The notes under the pieces were generated by a model. That model was not told where the DNA came from and made no database searches. It saw nothing but the letters and a program-made list of their open reading frames with translations. Positions 6,059 through 32,799 of a DNA stretch of 32,868 nt are shown piece by piece (the first letter of the stretch is position 1; the number at the start of each line of letters is the position of its first letter). The position numbers and the translations under genes were made by a program. Source of the stretch: a virus; IMG/VR virus record IMGVR_UViG_3300012096_000015, positions 1-32,868 of that record; one strand, given 5' to 3'.

Positions 6059-7047
6059 CAAAGTCTAAAAATTCGTACTTCACGGATGAAAAAGCCAACA
6101 TTAAATTTGTCAGTACCGGCTGCACGCTATTGGATTGTGCACTTGGAGGCGGGATTGCAGTAGGCCGTACCGCTAATGTCGTAGGTGACAAAAGTACCGC
6201 CAAGACCGGTACTGCTACTGAAGTCATGATCAATTTTGCACAAGAATACCCTTCAGGTAAAATAGCCTATCGGGAGACTGAAGCAGCGTGGGATGACAAT
6301 TACGCTGAAGCCATGGGGCTTCCTCTTTACAGGATTGACTTTGGCAACCGTGAAAGCCCAATCATCACGGTAGAAGACTTTTACATTGATTTTGAAAAGT
6401 TTTGTGATGCTCAAAAAGGGGAGCCGGGGCTTTACATACTTGATTCCTTTGATGGCCTATCAGATGATGCTGAAATGGCGCGTGATATAGATAAAGGTTC
6501 ATTTGGGGCTGCCAAAGCCAAGAAAATGAGTGAGATGTTTCGTAAACTTACACGCAAACAGGAACAATCAAATGTACTACTGTTTATGGTATCCCAAATA
6601 CGAGACAATATTGGTGCCCTTTTTGGTGAAAAGCATAAGCGCAGCGGTGGGAAAGCCTTGGACTTTTACGCCAGTCAGGTGTTCTGGCTTGCTCATATCA
6701 AGATACTAAAACGCACCATCAACAAGGTTGAACGTCCTTATGGCATTGAAATTCTAGCCAAGGTCAAGAAAAACAAGGTAGGCATGCCGTTCCGAGAAGC
6801 ACAATTCACCTTTGAGTTCGGCTTTGGCATCAATGATCTTCTAGCCAGTGTAACTTGGCTCAATGAGGTAGATAGGTTAGATGCTCTTGATCTGAAAAAG
6901 GGTGAATTTAAAGAATACGTGAAAGAAATCGCAAGTATGCCGACTGATGAATACAAGCTGGAACGTGCACGTGCTACGGTAGCTGTCAAACAGGTGTGGG
7001 CTGAGATAGAAACCACTTTCCTTCCCAAAAGGCAGAAGTACACATGA
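6031..7047 (+). CDS. RecA/UvsX-type recombinase
   Basis: A 338-residue recombinase core. Matching RecA order are an N-terminal strand leading to the P-loop (GDKSTAKTG, 52-60), the catalytic-glutamate region RETEAAWDDNYAEAMG (81-96), Walker B LYILDSFDGL (134-143), the very RecA-like stretch MSEMFRKLTRKQEQSNVLLF, then SQIRDNIG, and loop L2 (SGGKALDFYAS). The RecA C-terminal domain is short or absent. It forms filaments on single-stranded DNA and drives strand exchange, with the gp32-like protein and gp46/47 exonuclease as natural partners. The P-loop has Ala where GKT normally has Gly; T4 UvsX, as I recall, is also irregular there. The stop overlaps the next ATG (ATGA). Confidence 0.92.
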   Translation: MAKRTRTQIAKSKNSYFTDEKANIKFVSTGCTLLDCALGGGIAVGRTANVVGDKSTAKTGTATEVMINFAQEYPSGKIAYRETEAAWDDNYAEAMGLPLYRIDFGNRESPIITVEDFYIDFEKFCDAQKGEPGLYILDSFDGLSDDAEMARDIDKGSFGAAKAKKMSEMFRKLTRKQEQSNVLLFMVSQIRDNIGALFGEKHKRSGGKALDFYASQVFWLAHIKILKRTINKVERPYGIEILAKVKKNKVGMPFREAQFTFEFGFGINDLLASVTWLNEVDRLDALDLKKGEFKEYVKEIASMPTDEYKLERARATVAVKQVWAEIETTFLPKRQKYT

Positions 7048-7799
7048 CACCTTTTATCCTAGCTTCAACCACCTATGGCCCCATGATCATCAACAGGATG
7101 GATACAGGAGTTAGTTGGCAGCTGTTTACGATTGGCTCTCATGAGCATGAGGTCGTATCTTTTGTTACGGGCTTGAGCACTGAATGCCTCGAACAATATA
7201 GCGCAGGTGTCCACATTGTTGATATCGGAGCTAATGTAGGTACCTGCACCATTCCATGGGCAAAACACTGCAAAGGATGGGGACATGTAACAGCCTTTGA
7301 ACCACAAGAGCGCATTTACTATGCCTTGGCAGGAAACATCGCATTGAACAATTGCATGAATGCTAAAGCCGTTCATGGAGCCGTTTCCAACCTGTCAGGA
7401 ACCATGCGTGTCCCTAGAATAAATTATGAAGTCCTTTCCAATTTTGGTGGAATTGCCATGCGTGACGGCTTGTTAATTCATGGCCCCGGTCAAGAACTAT
7501 CCTATGACAGGCATGAAATGGATGTTGTAAATTGTTTTGCTTTAGATGATTCCAAGTTATCACGACTTGATATTTTGAAAATAGACGTCGAAGGCATGGA
7601 AATGGATGTGCTGAAAGGTGCAACAGGTACCATCAAGAAGCTAAAACCCGTAGTAATCAGTGAATGGCTTCATTGCGGTAAAGAAGTAATTACTTCTTTT
7701 TTGGAAGATTTTGATCATTTTGAATTAGGTGGAAACATAGTCAGTGTGCCTATGTCAGAAACACGGATGAGAGACTATGTTTTTTCTAAGCTTAGATAA
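7044..7799 (+). CDS. FkbM-family SAM-dependent methyltransferase
   Basis: A 251-residue protein with the FkbM signature: SAM-binding motif VDIGANVGTCTIPWA at about 61-75, the acidic end of the second strand in TAFEPQERIYYAL, the motif LKIDVEGMEMDVLKGA, and a VVISEW strand after it. FkbM enzymes usually methylate hydroxyl groups of sugars, lipids or small molecules. The gene overlaps the recombinase stop by four bases and sits inside a recombination operon, so it is a cargo gene in an unusual place. Possible targets are host surface glycans or modified phage DNA bases; nothing in the sequence decides. Family assignment is strong. Confidence 0.9.
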   Translation: MTPFILASTTYGPMIINRMDTGVSWQLFTIGSHEHEVVSFVTGLSTECLEQYSAGVHIVDIGANVGTCTIPWAKHCKGWGHVTAFEPQERIYYALAGNIALNNCMNAKAVHGAVSNLSGTMRVPRINYEVLSNFGGIAMRDGLLIHGPGQELSYDRHEMDVVNCFALDDSKLSRLDILKIDVEGMEMDVLKGATGTIKKLKPVVISEWLHCGKEVITSFLEDFDHFELGGNIVSVPMSETRMRDYVFSKLR

Positions 7800-9615: not shown

Positions 9616-11405
9616 TGTTTGACTTACATTCTATTGTTTTTACTAATTTCAGATCATATGTGGGGACTCATGAATTTGAATTCCCAAAAGCTGTAGGACT
9701 GTACTACTTCACAGGTAAAAATCTAAGTGAACCTTCCCTTGGTGCGAATGGCAGTGGGAAAAGCACCTTTTTGGATGCTATTACATGGTGCCTCTACGGG
9801 CTTACCACACGTAAGCTGAAAGCCAATGAAGTATTGCCATGGGATAGCGACACTGGCTGCTCAGTTACCTTAGAATTGACTGTTGGTCAGCAAGAGCTAC
9901 AAATCAAACGAACTCAAAAGCCCAACAGTCTGTTGCTGAATGATAAACCTGTAGACCAAACCGAACTAGAAACACACCTTCGGCTTAATTTTGATTCGTT
10001 CCTTTATTCCGTAATCAATACCCAATTCGGCCAATCCTTTTTTTCATTGACACCATCAGCCAAACTAACTCTTTTTTCTGACATCATGGGATTGGACTTT
10101 TGGCTGGAAAAGAGTGAAGCCGCTGGCTATCGAGCAGTTGGATTAAGTTATCAAGAAACTAAAATCAAAGACTCAATTATGAGAGCGACTAATTACAAGC
10201 AAGTTTATGAAAAAGATCTAGCCCAAGCTCACCTTCGTTCCGATGAATTTAAAAACAATCAAAAAGCAATCATCGAACTCAAAACAAAGGAATTAACTCG
10301 TGCAGTTGATAAAGCTATATCCTTGGATGAAAAACTAGCTGATATCAAATTTGAAAATCATTCTAAACTTAAAAAACTGGAAAAATCACGTGATTCCTTT
10401 GTCTCAAACATTCAAAAAATAGCGCATGAACGCTCCGAATGTTCAGGTAAAATCAAGGTTTACAAAGAAGGTTACACTAAATTTAAAGATCTACAAAATG
10501 GTTGCCCACTTTGTCTTCAGAAAGTGGATAAGCCCCACCTAGACCTACTCAAACATGATCTGGACAAACAAATTCAATTTCTTGAAAGTGAACTTCGTGG
10601 AATTGATGAAGATCATACCGTATTTATGAAATATCTTATCCAAACTAATGGAAAGATCAATGCCTTAATCGATGAAATGAATGAAATCAGAAATAAAGAA
10701 GCTGAAGTCAAGTTGCTAGATGCAAAAATAGATCATCTTGAAAACAAAATTGATGATCTTATCAATGAAGATAATCCATGGACTGATTACATATTTGAAA
10801 AGAACTATGGCTTAGATCAAATCAAAAATGTCTTGAGCATAGATACCAAAATACTTGAAACTTGTCAAACCCATCTAGCCACTGTTGAATTTTGGGTTAA
10901 GGGGTTTAAACGTGTCCGGCTATTCATCATTGAACAGGCTTTCAAGACCTTGGAAATTGAAATCAACAACAGCTTGGCACAATTGGGGATGATTGATTGG
11001 CAAATCTCATTTGATGTCGAGCGTGAAAACAAATCTGGTGGCATCACCAAAGGTTTTGTGGTTTTTGTCAAAAGCCCTGCCAACACAGAGCCCGTAAGGT
11101 GGGAAAATTGGTCAGGCGGTGAAACTCAACGACTGCAATTGGCCGGTGATCTTGGATTAGCCAATCTAATCATGCATCAACATGGCTTAGATAATACCAT
11201 TGAGATATACGATGAACCATCCACTCATCTATCCCCTGAAGGTATGCTTGATTTGGCCAACATGCTTTATGAGCGTGCTATAGGCGAAGGTAAGCGTATT
11301 TGGATAGTAGACCACGCAGCAATCACCAACTTTGGTGAATTCGAAGGAACCATAACCGCAATGAAAGATCGAAATGGCTCAACAATTACCATTGACAATA
11401 GGTAA
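9615..11405 (+). CDS. SbcC/gp46-like ATPase (Rad50 type)
   Basis: A 596-residue SMC-like ATPase. Walker A GANGSGKST is at 43-51. Two charged coiled-coil arms flank a zinc hook CPLC at about 297-300. Then come the ABC signature WSGGETQRLQLAGDLG at about 499, a Walker B variant IEIYDEPSTHLS near 530 (Tyr in place of the usual Leu), and an H-loop WIVDH. Length and order match T4 gp46. It partners with the gp47-like nuclease just upstream; the pair resects DNA ends for recombination-dependent replication. Translation starts at the TAATG overlap with the preceding small gene. Confidence 0.93.
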   Translation: MFDLHSIVFTNFRSYVGTHEFEFPKAVGLYYFTGKNLSEPSLGANGSGKSTFLDAITWCLYGLTTRKLKANEVLPWDSDTGCSVTLELTVGQQELQIKRTQKPNSLLLNDKPVDQTELETHLRLNFDSFLYSVINTQFGQSFFSLTPSAKLTLFSDIMGLDFWLEKSEAAGYRAVGLSYQETKIKDSIMRATNYKQVYEKDLAQAHLRSDEFKNNQKAIIELKTKELTRAVDKAISLDEKLADIKFENHSKLKKLEKSRDSFVSNIQKIAHERSECSGKIKVYKEGYTKFKDLQNGCPLCLQKVDKPHLDLLKHDLDKQIQFLESELRGIDEDHTVFMKYLIQTNGKINALIDEMNEIRNKEAEVKLLDAKIDHLENKIDDLINEDNPWTDYIFEKNYGLDQIKNVLSIDTKILETCQTHLATVEFWVKGFKRVRLFIIEQAFKTLEIEINNSLAQLGMIDWQISFDVERENKSGGITKGFVVFVKSPANTEPVRWENWSGGETQRLQLAGDLGLANLIMHQHGLDNTIEIYDEPSTHLSPEGMLDLANMLYERAIGEGKRIWIVDHAAITNFGEFEGTITAMKDRNGSTITIDNR

Positions 11406-11409
11406 ACAG

Positions 11410-11943
11410 ATGATATCTCCGTTTACATCTGAAGATGATCAACAAATAATTGAACTCTTCAAGGAAGGTCACTCCATGGGTGCTATAGGAAACCAACTTA
11501 AACGATCAAGGTCTGCCATTGCAGGTCGAATACATCGTTTACGCACTGTCTTAAAAGATAAGTTAAGTGAAGATGATTTGAAGCCTAGACGGGGTGAACC
11601 ACCTAAAGGTAGAGTTAAGGTCGTTGAAACCCCCAGTAAGCCAAGATTAAGTCCTCGTCATCAAGAATTGACCACTCTAGATGAAGATACCTCACCCTTA
11701 GTTCCTAAAATGAGAGTTAGATTACGCATGATTGATAAAAATACGTCTGAAGTAACCCATAATGAACTCAAATGGTATCACTGCCGATGGCCGAAAGGCG
11801 ATCCATGTCATTCAGACTTTAGATTTTGCGGAGCACCCCGCATCAGTGGAAGTGTGCGTACCCCTTACTGCAAGGAACACACTTTGCTGGCTGGCAAACA
11901 ATATTCAGATGTGCGGGTTAACAATCCTATAACCTGCAATTGA
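11410..11943 (+). CDS. gcrA: GcrA-like cell-cycle/transcription regulator
   Basis: A 177-residue protein with both halves of the GcrA family. Residues 5-46 are a helix-turn-helix (EDDQQIIELFKEG, then GNQLKRSRSAIAGRIHRL). Residues 125-157 carry the C-terminal signature CRWPKGDP, FRFCG and PYCKEH, which host GcrA proteins share almost word for word. A basic Pro-rich linker joins the two. In Caulobacter, GcrA works with sigma70 and prefers promoters with m6A-methylated GANTC; binding to sigma70 or methylated sites by this protein is inference. The start at 11410 is chosen for TAGGT upstream; an ATG at 11374 lies inside gp46. It is the last gene of the early operon, placed to switch expression to late or host genes. 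Its 3' end overlaps the convergent gene by 39 bases. Confidence 0.85.
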   Translation: MISPFTSEDDQQIIELFKEGHSMGAIGNQLKRSRSAIAGRIHRLRTVLKDKLSEDDLKPRRGEPPKGRVKVVETPSKPRLSPRHQELTTLDEDTSPLVPKMRVRLRMIDKNTSEVTHNELKWYHCRWPKGDPCHSDFRFCGAPRISGSVRTPYCKEHTLLAGKQYSDVRVNNPITCN

Positions 11944-15868: not shown

Positions 15869-16669
15869 TTACAAACGAGCTGACCACGCATCTCCTCCAG
15901 TCTGTGCATTTGAAGCATAATCTATTGGAAGCCAAAAGTGACCGTGGATACCCCAATCAGTTCCCCATGAATTTCTAATCAACAGAGCCGTATTATTCAC
16001 CAAAGCAGGATCAAAACCAGACTTTTTTAAATCATCAGATTGTAAAAAATTGGTATCATAACCAACAACCAACACGTCATGGCCCCCAACATCCTTTTCT
16101 TTAAGGACATTGGGGCGAGGCATGACACCAGTTTTAGCCAAATGGTTATCATCAATGGATTCGTAGCATTCAAACCCAAGGATGAATGGAAAACCTTCGG
16201 CTAAACAATCCAGAAAGTCTTCCTCAGAAGTAAGCTGACTGTAAGATTTTATCTTGTAACCATCTGCCGCTGCCAAAACCCCTTCCGGAGGTGCTGTCTT
16301 GAAATTAGATGGTGTATACTCCCAAAGGCTTTCAGGGGCCGCACCGACATCCTTTAACACAGCAAACAAATCCTTAGTCTCAACACCTGCATCTTCAGCT
16401 ACATCGTCCTCAAACTGCCGAACACTGTAATAAATCTGTTGACGGCTGAAACCACCAAGCTGGGCCACTTCAGGATAGAAAAAGCCCATTAAAGCCGCAG
16501 CGCTATTAGGACCACACGAACCCTCTTCACCTTGATCAAACGCAGGTGGAAACATAAGCCGCAAATCAACCATAGGAGGGCGTAAACCAGAAAAGCCCAA
16601 AGCTTGAGGTAAAAAACGAGGCCCTACCAACGCTGAGTTTCGTCGTAAATTATGTTTATAGATTTTCAT
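15869..16669 (-). CDS. Papain-like (C1 family) cysteine peptidase
   Basis: A 266-residue protein with all papain active-site positions: oxyanion Gln46 and catalytic Cys52 in DQGEEGSCGPNSAA, His197 in VGGHDVLVVGYD, and Asn233 in IRNSWGTDWG. There is no signal peptide or prodomain, so it would act in the cytoplasm or as a virion component. It lies between a holin-like gene and a lipoprotein gene in the lysis block. Candidate roles are processing of a phage protein, cutting a host protein late in infection, or a virion-associated function. A peptidase of this type is not a standard lysis gene. Family assignment is strong and the role is open. Confidence 0.85.
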   Translation of the reverse strand: MKIYKHNLRRNSALVGPRFLPQALGFSGLRPPMVDLRLMFPPAFDQGEEGSCGPNSAAALMGFFYPEVAQLGGFSRQQIYYSVRQFEDDVAEDAGVETKDLFAVLKDVGAAPESLWEYTPSNFKTAPPEGVLAAADGYKIKSYSQLTSEEDFLDCLAEGFPFILGFECYESIDDNHLAKTGVMPRPNVLKEKDVGGHDVLVVGYDTNFLQSDDLKKSGFDPALVNNTALLIRNSWGTDWGIHGHFWLPIDYASNAQTGGDAWSARL

Positions 16670-31023: not shown

Positions 31024-31050
31024 ATGACGCTCCTGTTAAACGCCACGCTA

Positions 31051-31767
31051 TCAGATTTTTGGCACTATAAATTTAATTCGATTATATACTGAACCTATAT
31101 TCAAGCCGATTTTATCGGCTATTGCTTGAATGGTCATACCTTCTTCACGCATTTTACGCATCTTTTCAGTAAGAGCATCTATTTTTTGAGTATCCTTACG
31201 GGGTCTCCTTTCAACACTTGGTGGAATATAATCAACTCCTTTAATTTTTATTTCATCAATATAAAACTCAACACGCTTCTCAGCTTTTACAAGAGAACTT
31301 TCACGCCCTAATGCTATTTTAATACCTTTAAGATCACCATTTCCAAATCCACGGGAAATATTTCTACTTATATAAAAATAACCATCTCTTTTATCTTCAT
31401 GAATATACATGCCGTACCCATATTTACCTCTACCATAGCTTCTATAAACTTTCTTTCCCCTACGTTTAAATTGATTCTCAGCTTCAGTTAATTCTTGCAA
31501 ATTATCAGGACGATTATTCATAGGATTATCGTCTATATGATCAATATGATATCCTGATTTTTGCCATCTTCCATGCGTTAAAAACCAAACTGCACCAGCA
31601 TAAGACGTAGAAATTAATTGACCATTCCAATTTATATTAAAACCCAGATGAGCATAACAATCTCGCACTGTTATTTTACCTGTTTCGTCTAACGTAGCAT
31701 GTTCTTTGAAAAACTTTTCAAACTCTGGATTCTCACGCTTCTTAAGCAACTTTAAACGCTTACGCAT
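31051..31767 (-). CDS. HNH homing-type endonuclease with C-terminal HTH
   Basis: A 238-residue protein. An HNH core lies at 74-100 (HIDHIDDNPMNNRPDNL then EAENQF), the form of group I or free-standing phage HNH nucleases. The C-terminus, about 205-238 (MREEGMTIQAIADKIG then NIGSVYNRIKFI), is a helix-turn-helix that could read a DNA site. The gene is clearly more AT-rich than its neighbours, is inserted directly after the stop of the connector gene and has its own promoter and leader. All these point to a mobile homing gene acquired from elsewhere. It cuts phages lacking the insertion and spreads by repair, in the standard model. Confidence 0.88.
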   Translation of the reverse strand: MRKRLKLLKKRENPEFEKFFKEHATLDETGKITVRDCYAHLGFNINWNGQLISTSYAGAVWFLTHGRWQKSGYHIDHIDDNPMNNRPDNLQELTEAENQFKRRGKKVYRSYGRGKYGYGMYIHEDKRDGYFYISRNISRGFGNGDLKGIKIALGRESSLVKAEKRVEFYIDEIKIKGVDYIPPSVERRPRKDTQKIDALTEKMRKMREEGMTIQAIADKIGLNIGSVYNRIKFIVPKI

Positions 31768-31771
31768 TTTT

Positions 31772-31789
31772 ACCTCCTAATGTGGAGGT
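31772..31789 (-). promoter_or_regulatory. Hairpin covering the HNH ribosome site
   Basis: On the minus strand ACCTCC (31789-31784) is fully complementary to GGAGGT (31777-31772), with a six-base loop ACATTA. GGAGGT is the Shine-Dalgarno of the HNH gene, four bases before its ATG. In RNA reading through from upstream the hairpin would hide the ribosome site. Confidence 0.7.
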
Positions 31790-31791
31790 TT

Positions 31792-31821
31792 CTTATACTA
31801 ACTTTTTAATTAACTTGTCAA
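31792..31821 (-). promoter_or_regulatory. Sigma70-type promoter of the HNH gene
   Basis: On the minus strand TTGACA (31821-31816, perfect -35) is followed after 18 bases by TATAAG (31797-31792, five of six to the -10). The -35 begins immediately after the stop codon of the connector gene. The expected start site at about 31787-31783 falls inside the left arm of the leader hairpin. Confidence 0.7.
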
Positions 31822-32799
31822 CTATATACCAGACTGACCTGAAGGGCCCGGAAAAAACCCATCTTGAACGGAACTAGGCGACAGGAATACTGGACTTTGA
31901 CGCTTAGCCAATTGCAAAGTAGGTGCAGCACCATCTTGACCAATCAATTGATTGACATAATCAACCCATCTGGTTTGCAAGGTAATGTAACTTCCCATCC
32001 CCTTGATTTCCCAAAACATCCACTTAATACCAGTAACTATGGATTGATCATTCAAAAGGCTAGTATCAAGATCATTGGCAAAATACTGAGCGAAATTTAT
32101 ACCCGTGCCCAATACATTGACAGCATTATTGGATCGATATTCAAAGACAAGTTGAAGTGGAGCTACAAGCTCAAAAGGTGGGGGCCAAATACGCCAATTA
32201 TTCGTAAAAGGCCCAACCTGTCGGAAATGCCTTCGTGGGCCAGTAGTCACAATACCTGACAAATGCCATTGATCCATTTGAGGCGATGTAGGCCCTATCA
32301 GTTCCCAATGATTGGTTCTATCCCACATAGTCCTATTTTGAAAAGTATCAAAACCGGGAGGTTCAGGAAATGTATCCTGAGCAAAAGTAAGATTTGCTCC
32401 AGTAGCAACTGCAGGATTAGTAGACTGCATATTCATAGTAACCGTAGTTGCATCATTTACAGTAACAACACGGGCACCCTGTGGAATATTGGCTCCTGAT
32501 ATGGCCGTAGAATTAGCTATGATTGCAGCCGTACTTGGAATATTACTTATCGTTTTAGTAAATGCCGTCAAGAAATTGCCAGTCGTCAACAACGGCACTG
32601 GTACTGCCAAATCATATTCAAATTGCAGAGCAGTCCAGCCTGACGTAGCATTCATGGATCTTAATTCGTCCAAAACGCGATTTGCCAATGCAAACATCTG
32701 TGTCGTAGTAGCATCCGTGTTTCCTACGACACTTGCTGCTACCGGCAACCCAAGTTCGGCTTGGGCCTTCTGGACCATTTGAAGCAAAGTAAGAGCCAT
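31822..32799 (-). CDS. Podovirus head-tail connector protein (gp4/gp11-like)
   Basis: A 325-residue protein with a helical N-terminus (LLQMVQKAQAELGLP, then QMFALANRVLDELRSM) and an inserted beta domain of about 60-130 (TKTISNIPSTAAII, NDATTVTMN). Then come FDTFQNRTMWDRTNHWELIGP and a C-terminal half with FEYRSNNAV and GIKWMFWEIKGM. I recall this family from many podoviruses of Proteobacteria, where it acts as the tail accessory or tubular protein A, binding the portal and leading to the gp10-like nozzle. P22 gp4 and T7 gp11 are shorter. The position upstream of the gp10-like gene agrees. The HNH gene separates the two. Confidence 0.78.
   Translation of the reverse strand: MALTLLQMVQKAQAELGLPVAASVVGNTDATTTQMFALANRVLDELRSMNATSGWTALQFEYDLAVPVPLLTTGNFLTAFTKTISNIPSTAAIIANSTAISGANIPQGARVVTVNDATTVTMNMQSTNPAVATGANLTFAQDTFPEPPGFDTFQNRTMWDRTNHWELIGPTSPQMDQWHLSGIVTTGPRRHFRQVGPFTNNWRIWPPPFELVAPLQLVFEYRSNNAVNVLGTGINFAQYFANDLDTSLLNDQSIVTGIKWMFWEIKGMGSYITLQTRWVDYVNQLIGQDGAAPTLQLAKRQSPVFLSPSSVQDGFFPGPSGQSGI

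Follow-up and report, generated by a model that had tools for sequence, protein, structure and literature searches.

Hairpin leaders that keep a homing endonuclease gene from being translated on the wrong transcript are described for I-TevI, I-TevII, I-TevIII, segB and the mobE gene of phage Aeh1, in which RNA started upstream hides the ribosome-binding site (RBS), while a late promoter yields RNA without the left arm of the hairpin (PMC2988022). The mobE gene of Aeromonas phage Aeh1, which encodes an HNH enzyme, and segB of phage T4 are free-standing homing genes with a hairpin over the Shine–Dalgarno sequence (SD) and a similar promoter arrangement (PMC2988022; PMC3014915). The SD is also hidden on the long RNA of the T4 genes e and soc (PMC3014915), which differ in being the phage's own genes, not mobile endonucleases, and in using T4 promoters. 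A sequence-only reading of the DNA studied here had invoked I-TevI and mobE as precedents for two-state control of an HNH gene, and the literature bears this out (PMC2988022).

The analysed stretch, referred to below as the window, comprises all 32,868 nucleotides of the IMG/VR virus record IMGVR_UViG_3300012096_000015. The features of the locus are as follows:

31822–32799, minus strand: upstream late structural gene, the presumed source of the read-through RNA (ORF; PHROG 6013 'tail protein', E 6.7e-15)
31824–31822, minus strand: stop codon TAG of the upstream gene (sequence)
31816–31821, minus strand: −35 box TTGACA, directly 3' of the upstream stop (sequence)
31792–31797, minus strand: −10 box TATAAG, separated from the −35 box by an 18-nt spacer (sequence)
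31784–31789, minus strand: left arm of the hairpin, ACCTCC (sequence, folding)
31778–31783, minus strand: hairpin loop, ACATTA (folding)
31772–31777, minus strand: right arm of the hairpin, GGAGGT, which is the SD (sequence, folding)
31767–31765, minus strand: start codon ATG of the HNH gene (sequence)
31051–31767, minus strand: free-standing HNH endonuclease gene, 238 aa (Pfam PF13392, E 2.6e-12; PHROG 99, E 3.1e-13)
31050–31837, minus strand: inserted cassette of about 0.79 kb, consisting of promoter, hairpin leader and HNH gene (blastn against the empty site of contig L002)
31023–31050, minus strand: original intergenic leader of the next gene, TAGCGTGGCGTTTAACAGGAGCGTCATG, intact 3' of the insert (comparison with contigs L002, L004 and L005)

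The upstream gene had been taken for a connector gene; it is instead a homologue of PHROG 6013, and its protein has 36 relatives among viral contigs. The HNH protein carries the HNH_3 domain at residues 60–99, with an intact catalytic motif (DHIDDNPMNNRPDNL), and a weak helix-turn-helix similarity in its C-terminal part (residues ~200–232). No relatives of this protein were found in viral contigs or isolated phages (50,697 phage records), and the insertion site was therefore traced via the upstream gene; a DNA search of known phages gave no match. The site is empty in L002, whose upstream gene is 93% identical to that of the window in protein and 89% in DNA. The blastn homology to L002 ends at position 31838, shortly ahead of the upstream gene's stop, and restarts at 31049, two bases past the HNH stop. 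L004 and L005 are empty at this site as well, and all three contigs share the downstream leader of the window, with GCGTGGCGTTTAACAGGAGCGTCATG directly 3' of the upstream gene. The empty site of L002 shows that the promoter, the hairpin and the HNH gene arrived together as one insert, and that the promoter–hairpin unit is not native to the insertion site.

The leader of the HNH gene runs from TATAAG through AA, ACCTCC-ACATTA-GGAGGT and four A's to the HNH ATG. All elements of the TTGACA/18/TATAAG promoter that had been proposed between the upstream stop and the ATG are present at 31821–31792, and GGAGGT can pair over its whole length with ACCTCC, as had also been claimed, in six perfect pairs with the arms six bases apart. 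With the usual 6-nt discriminator, the modelled start site (+1) is C31785, which places it within ACCTCC, toward its end, where the same reading had put it; a start at the nearest purine, A31783, which opens the loop, would drop the whole left arm. The folding of the leader has a z-score of −2.8, with 2 of 200 shuffles equally good. When both strands of the whole window were scored for sigma70-like sites with our own matrix, this promoter shared second place; a simple consensus scanner does not detect it, owing to the G at the last position of the −10 box. Shuffling of the upstream sequence gave P = 0.002 for an equally good promoter with +1 in the arm and P = 0.01 for equal SD pairing. Opening of the hairpin by translational coupling was considered and rejected: the upstream stop lies 32 nt before the left arm, beyond the footprint of a terminating ribosome, so that coupling should leave the hairpin closed.

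Altogether, 15 distinct HNH inserts occupy this site, representing three HNH subfamilies and one apparent fusion. Nine of them were found first (the window, L015, L019, L020, L023, L024, L028, L031 and L034; the L020 insert is identical in L026, L033 and L036 and was counted once). The full layout, with the SD in the right arm and the predicted +1 in the left arm, is present in 11 of the 15, and the modelled +1 lies 16–23 nt before the start codon across these 11 inserts. L020, L023, L024, L172 and L181 likewise have a −35 box of the TTGAC type located at the stop codon or next to it. The sequences of the stems differ, being ACCTCC/GGAGGT in the window and CCCTCC/GGAGGG in L020, and they differ even between L028 and L034, whose proteins are 83% identical. 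As the similarity of leaders between subfamilies is near background, it is the geometry that is conserved, not the sequence. Conservation of the pairing in related phages had been named beforehand as the test of the hairpin, and it was found as a hairpin with a left-arm +1 in those 11 inserts, across three subfamilies and with differing stems; the MAFFT alignment of the leaders, in which the arms fall out of register and the stems and loops vary in length, yielded no covariation count.

Different HNH subfamilies precede the same downstream gene in L020 and L034. In both, the HNH stop overlaps the start of the next gene (ATGA), which suggests translational coupling of the downstream gene. Contig L016 (1108–1195) has no HNH gene; compared with L018, the interval between the same pair of genes is longer by 74 nt, and the extra stretch, which includes TTGACAGGG just past the stop, may be what remains of a lost cassette.

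In all of the first nine inserts, a compact hairpin has the SD as its right arm. Eight of them score by a strict energy measure, and 232 leaders of other genes from the same loci are far less stable (p = 2e-6); approximately one in 176 ATG genes is as stable as the median of the first-found hairpins. The exception, L019, has AGGGAG as its SD and for that reason does not pass the strict measure; in this leader ACAGGG pairs with CCCTGT. In a read-through RNA of 190 nt, the cost of opening the SD is 8.1 kcal/mol or more for each of the nine inserts, against a control median of 3.2 (p = 8e-7). The mean cost in the nine falls from 10.6 kcal/mol in the read-through RNA to 2.5 in the modelled purine-start RNA, compared with a fall from 11.7 in the long RNA to 4.2 in the RNA cut at −20 when the same calculation was applied to T4 I-TevI as a control. 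Only 3.4% of the control genes, cut at −20, matched the smallest drop seen in the inserts. For L015, L172 and L181, SD pairing alone is not significant against shuffles that keep the CT-rich composition; when each family is represented by its poorest SD-pairing value, the combined p is still 0.0065. Leaders within a subfamily share ancestry, so that the eleven inserts do not represent eleven independent events, and the first nine had been noticed before they were tested.

When the 60 nt preceding the arm are searched, the best sigma70-like promoter places +1 in the left arm in each of the first nine inserts, toward the 3' end of the arm and 18–23 nt before the start codon (combined p = 9e-10 for the nine against shuffled upstream sequence). 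The promoter scores of the nine exceed those of 175 control genes (p = 3e-6). The distance from the upstream stop to the start codon ranges from 51 to 97 nt, and that from +1 to the start codon is nearly constant, which indicates a unit built around the start codon.

The prediction was written down before a second scan, carried out with a profile of the upstream protein, which gave five distinct new HNH inserts at the site, two of which (L172 and L181) fit. L172 fits fully, with TTGACA-18-TATAGC and CCTCCTT-AACC-AAGGAGG, and L181 mostly, its stem being weaker (−7.7) and its −10 box poor. The layout is absent from L193/L195, L217 and L223 of the second scan and from the earlier L037, all of which belong to more distant phages. 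Three of these four exceptions are explained by the lack of room, since the HNH start follows the upstream stop by 0 nt in L193/L195, 13 nt in L037 and 19 nt in L223; in L217, 75 nt are available and the SD pairing is only partial.

The layout as a general trait of HNH genes was rejected, as it was not found at the off-site HNH genes of the same genomes and only 10 of 73 other HNH loci have a hairpin of −8 kcal/mol or lower. L070 and L075 come nearest to the full layout: in these distant HNH genes on other phage contigs (L070, 2128–2230; L075, 935–1037), the SD is covered by a strong hairpin, and the predicted +1 of a weak promoter would lie within the left arm. A further HNH gene, L151:1242–1898, lies between tRNA genes, with its ATG adjoining the 3' end of tRNA-Leu(TAA) and tRNA-Gln(TTG) after it.

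We consider it probable that the HNH gene of the window is a free-standing insert of the homing-endonuclease type between two late structural genes, its protein presumably acting in homing, and that it carries a two-RNA switch. Read-through RNA from the structural gene would contain both arms, the SD would be folded into the hairpin and blocked to ribosomes, and little HNH protein would be made. RNA from the cassette's own sigma70-type promoter would start in the final part of the left arm or within the loop, could not form the hairpin and would be translated from a leader of 16–23 nt. In this way, translation of the endonuclease would depend on its own promoter and be insulated from the strong transcription of the structural genes. 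The two-state mechanism put forward by the sequence-only reading is, at the level of sequence comparison and modelling, well supported by the recurrence of the layout in 11 of 15 inserts and by the I-TevI-like energy gap.

The same hairpin might weaken translation on every transcript without any switch, if the promoter-like sequence were a product of chance in an AT-rich spacer or fired upstream of the arm. The window contains other, generic sites with comparable scores (34 at 9.5 or more), and the promoters are weak in L028 and in L034 (4.9) and L181 (6.6), both of which favour such a reading; the position of +1 within the arm in 11 out of 11 fitting inserts, at a near-fixed distance from the start codon, and the promoter scores above those of control genes make it unlikely. 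The inverted repeat could also be a DNA operator at +1, bound by the HNH protein or another repressor that shuts the promoter, with the RNA hairpin incidental. The overlap of the repeat with the predicted +1, the C-terminal helix-turn-helix similarity of the HNH protein, weak as it is, and the known autorepression of the I-TevI late promoter by its product (PMC2988022) are consistent with this; however, the arms vary in length (6–13 bp) and sequence within one HNH subfamily, their common trait is a right arm formed by the SD, and an operator has no need to include the SD every time, for which reasons we regard it as improbable. An opposite-strand transcription terminator (ACCTCCTAATGTGGAGGT-TTCTTATACT on the plus strand), although flagged by a terminator scan, is very hard to credit, as all genes around it have minus-strand orientation, its T-run is weak and the relative L020 has no T-run on the plus strand.

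The alphaproteobacterial setting assumed for the phage is supported by three observations. The window encodes a homologue of GcrA, an alphaproteobacterial cell-cycle transcription regulator (11374–11943, plus strand; PF07750, E 4.9e-22). The CcrM methylation site GANTC is depleted over the whole window, with 47 occurrences against 102 expected, a count not exceeding that of any of 100 shuffles. Moreover, a prophage on a contig of Rhizobium sp. BK251 (L239) encodes a protein related to the upstream structural protein (43%), and its copy of the site carries no HNH insert. The phage GcrA might act on the promoter of the cassette; there is no GANTC within this promoter. Elsewhere in the window, a papain-family cysteine protease gene (15869–16669, minus strand; PF00112, E 4.8e-10) lies among the late genes, and an FkbM-type methyltransferase gene (7044–7799, plus strand; PF05050, E 3.2e-16) directly follows a UvsX-like recombinase gene.

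No T7-like RNA polymerase was found in 11 relatives, in a search in which the T7 and N4 positive controls matched, and therefore the host RNA polymerase probably transcribes these genomes; a search for sigma factors gave only matches below the cut-off. Together with the sigma70-type promoter, this suggests that it may be the local RNA of the proposed switch that is made early. Activity of a host sigma70 promoter could fall early in infection, and structural read-through would come late; in that case the cassette would be switched on at first and off later, in the opposite order to I-TevI. We put forward only tentatively the broader view that one intergenic site in a clade of non-T4 phages has been visited by several HNH homing-gene families, each acquiring or exchanging the same promoter-in-hairpin leader, tuned to the host sigma70, with the endonuclease made early and silenced on the late read-through RNA.

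The leader of the window resembles those of I-TevI, I-TevII and I-TevIII in that a hairpin hides the SD on upstream-started RNA and the RNA of a local promoter would be without the left arm. I-TevI is a GIY-YIG enzyme encoded in a group I intron and expressed from a T4 late promoter, whereas the window cassette is a free-standing HNH gene in a structural-gene operon with a −35/−10 promoter of the sigma70 type, and the stems of the inserts are mostly shorter. The mobE and segB genes differ in belonging to T4-like phages, in their T4 late promoters and in their insertion sites, and no sequence relation of the window HNH gene to either was found among the 50,697 phage records. T4-type late promoters consist of TATAAATA and have no −35 box; the promoter of the window, TTGACA-18-TATAAG, is not of this class. 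The leader would thus work like the T4 systems with a promoter of another class, and the logic of I-TevI and mobE appears to operate outside the T4 group, in phages that seem to use a host sigma70-type promoter for it. The arrangement offers a searchable signature for other mobile genes, namely a hairpin that has the SD in its right arm and +1 in its left arm, 16–23 nt before the start codon. The T4 switches could have been a peculiarity of T4 late promoters and introns; recurrence without T4 promoters, in several HNH subfamilies at one site, would make hiding the RBS from the transcription of neighbours a general requirement for homing genes that settle among strongly expressed genes.
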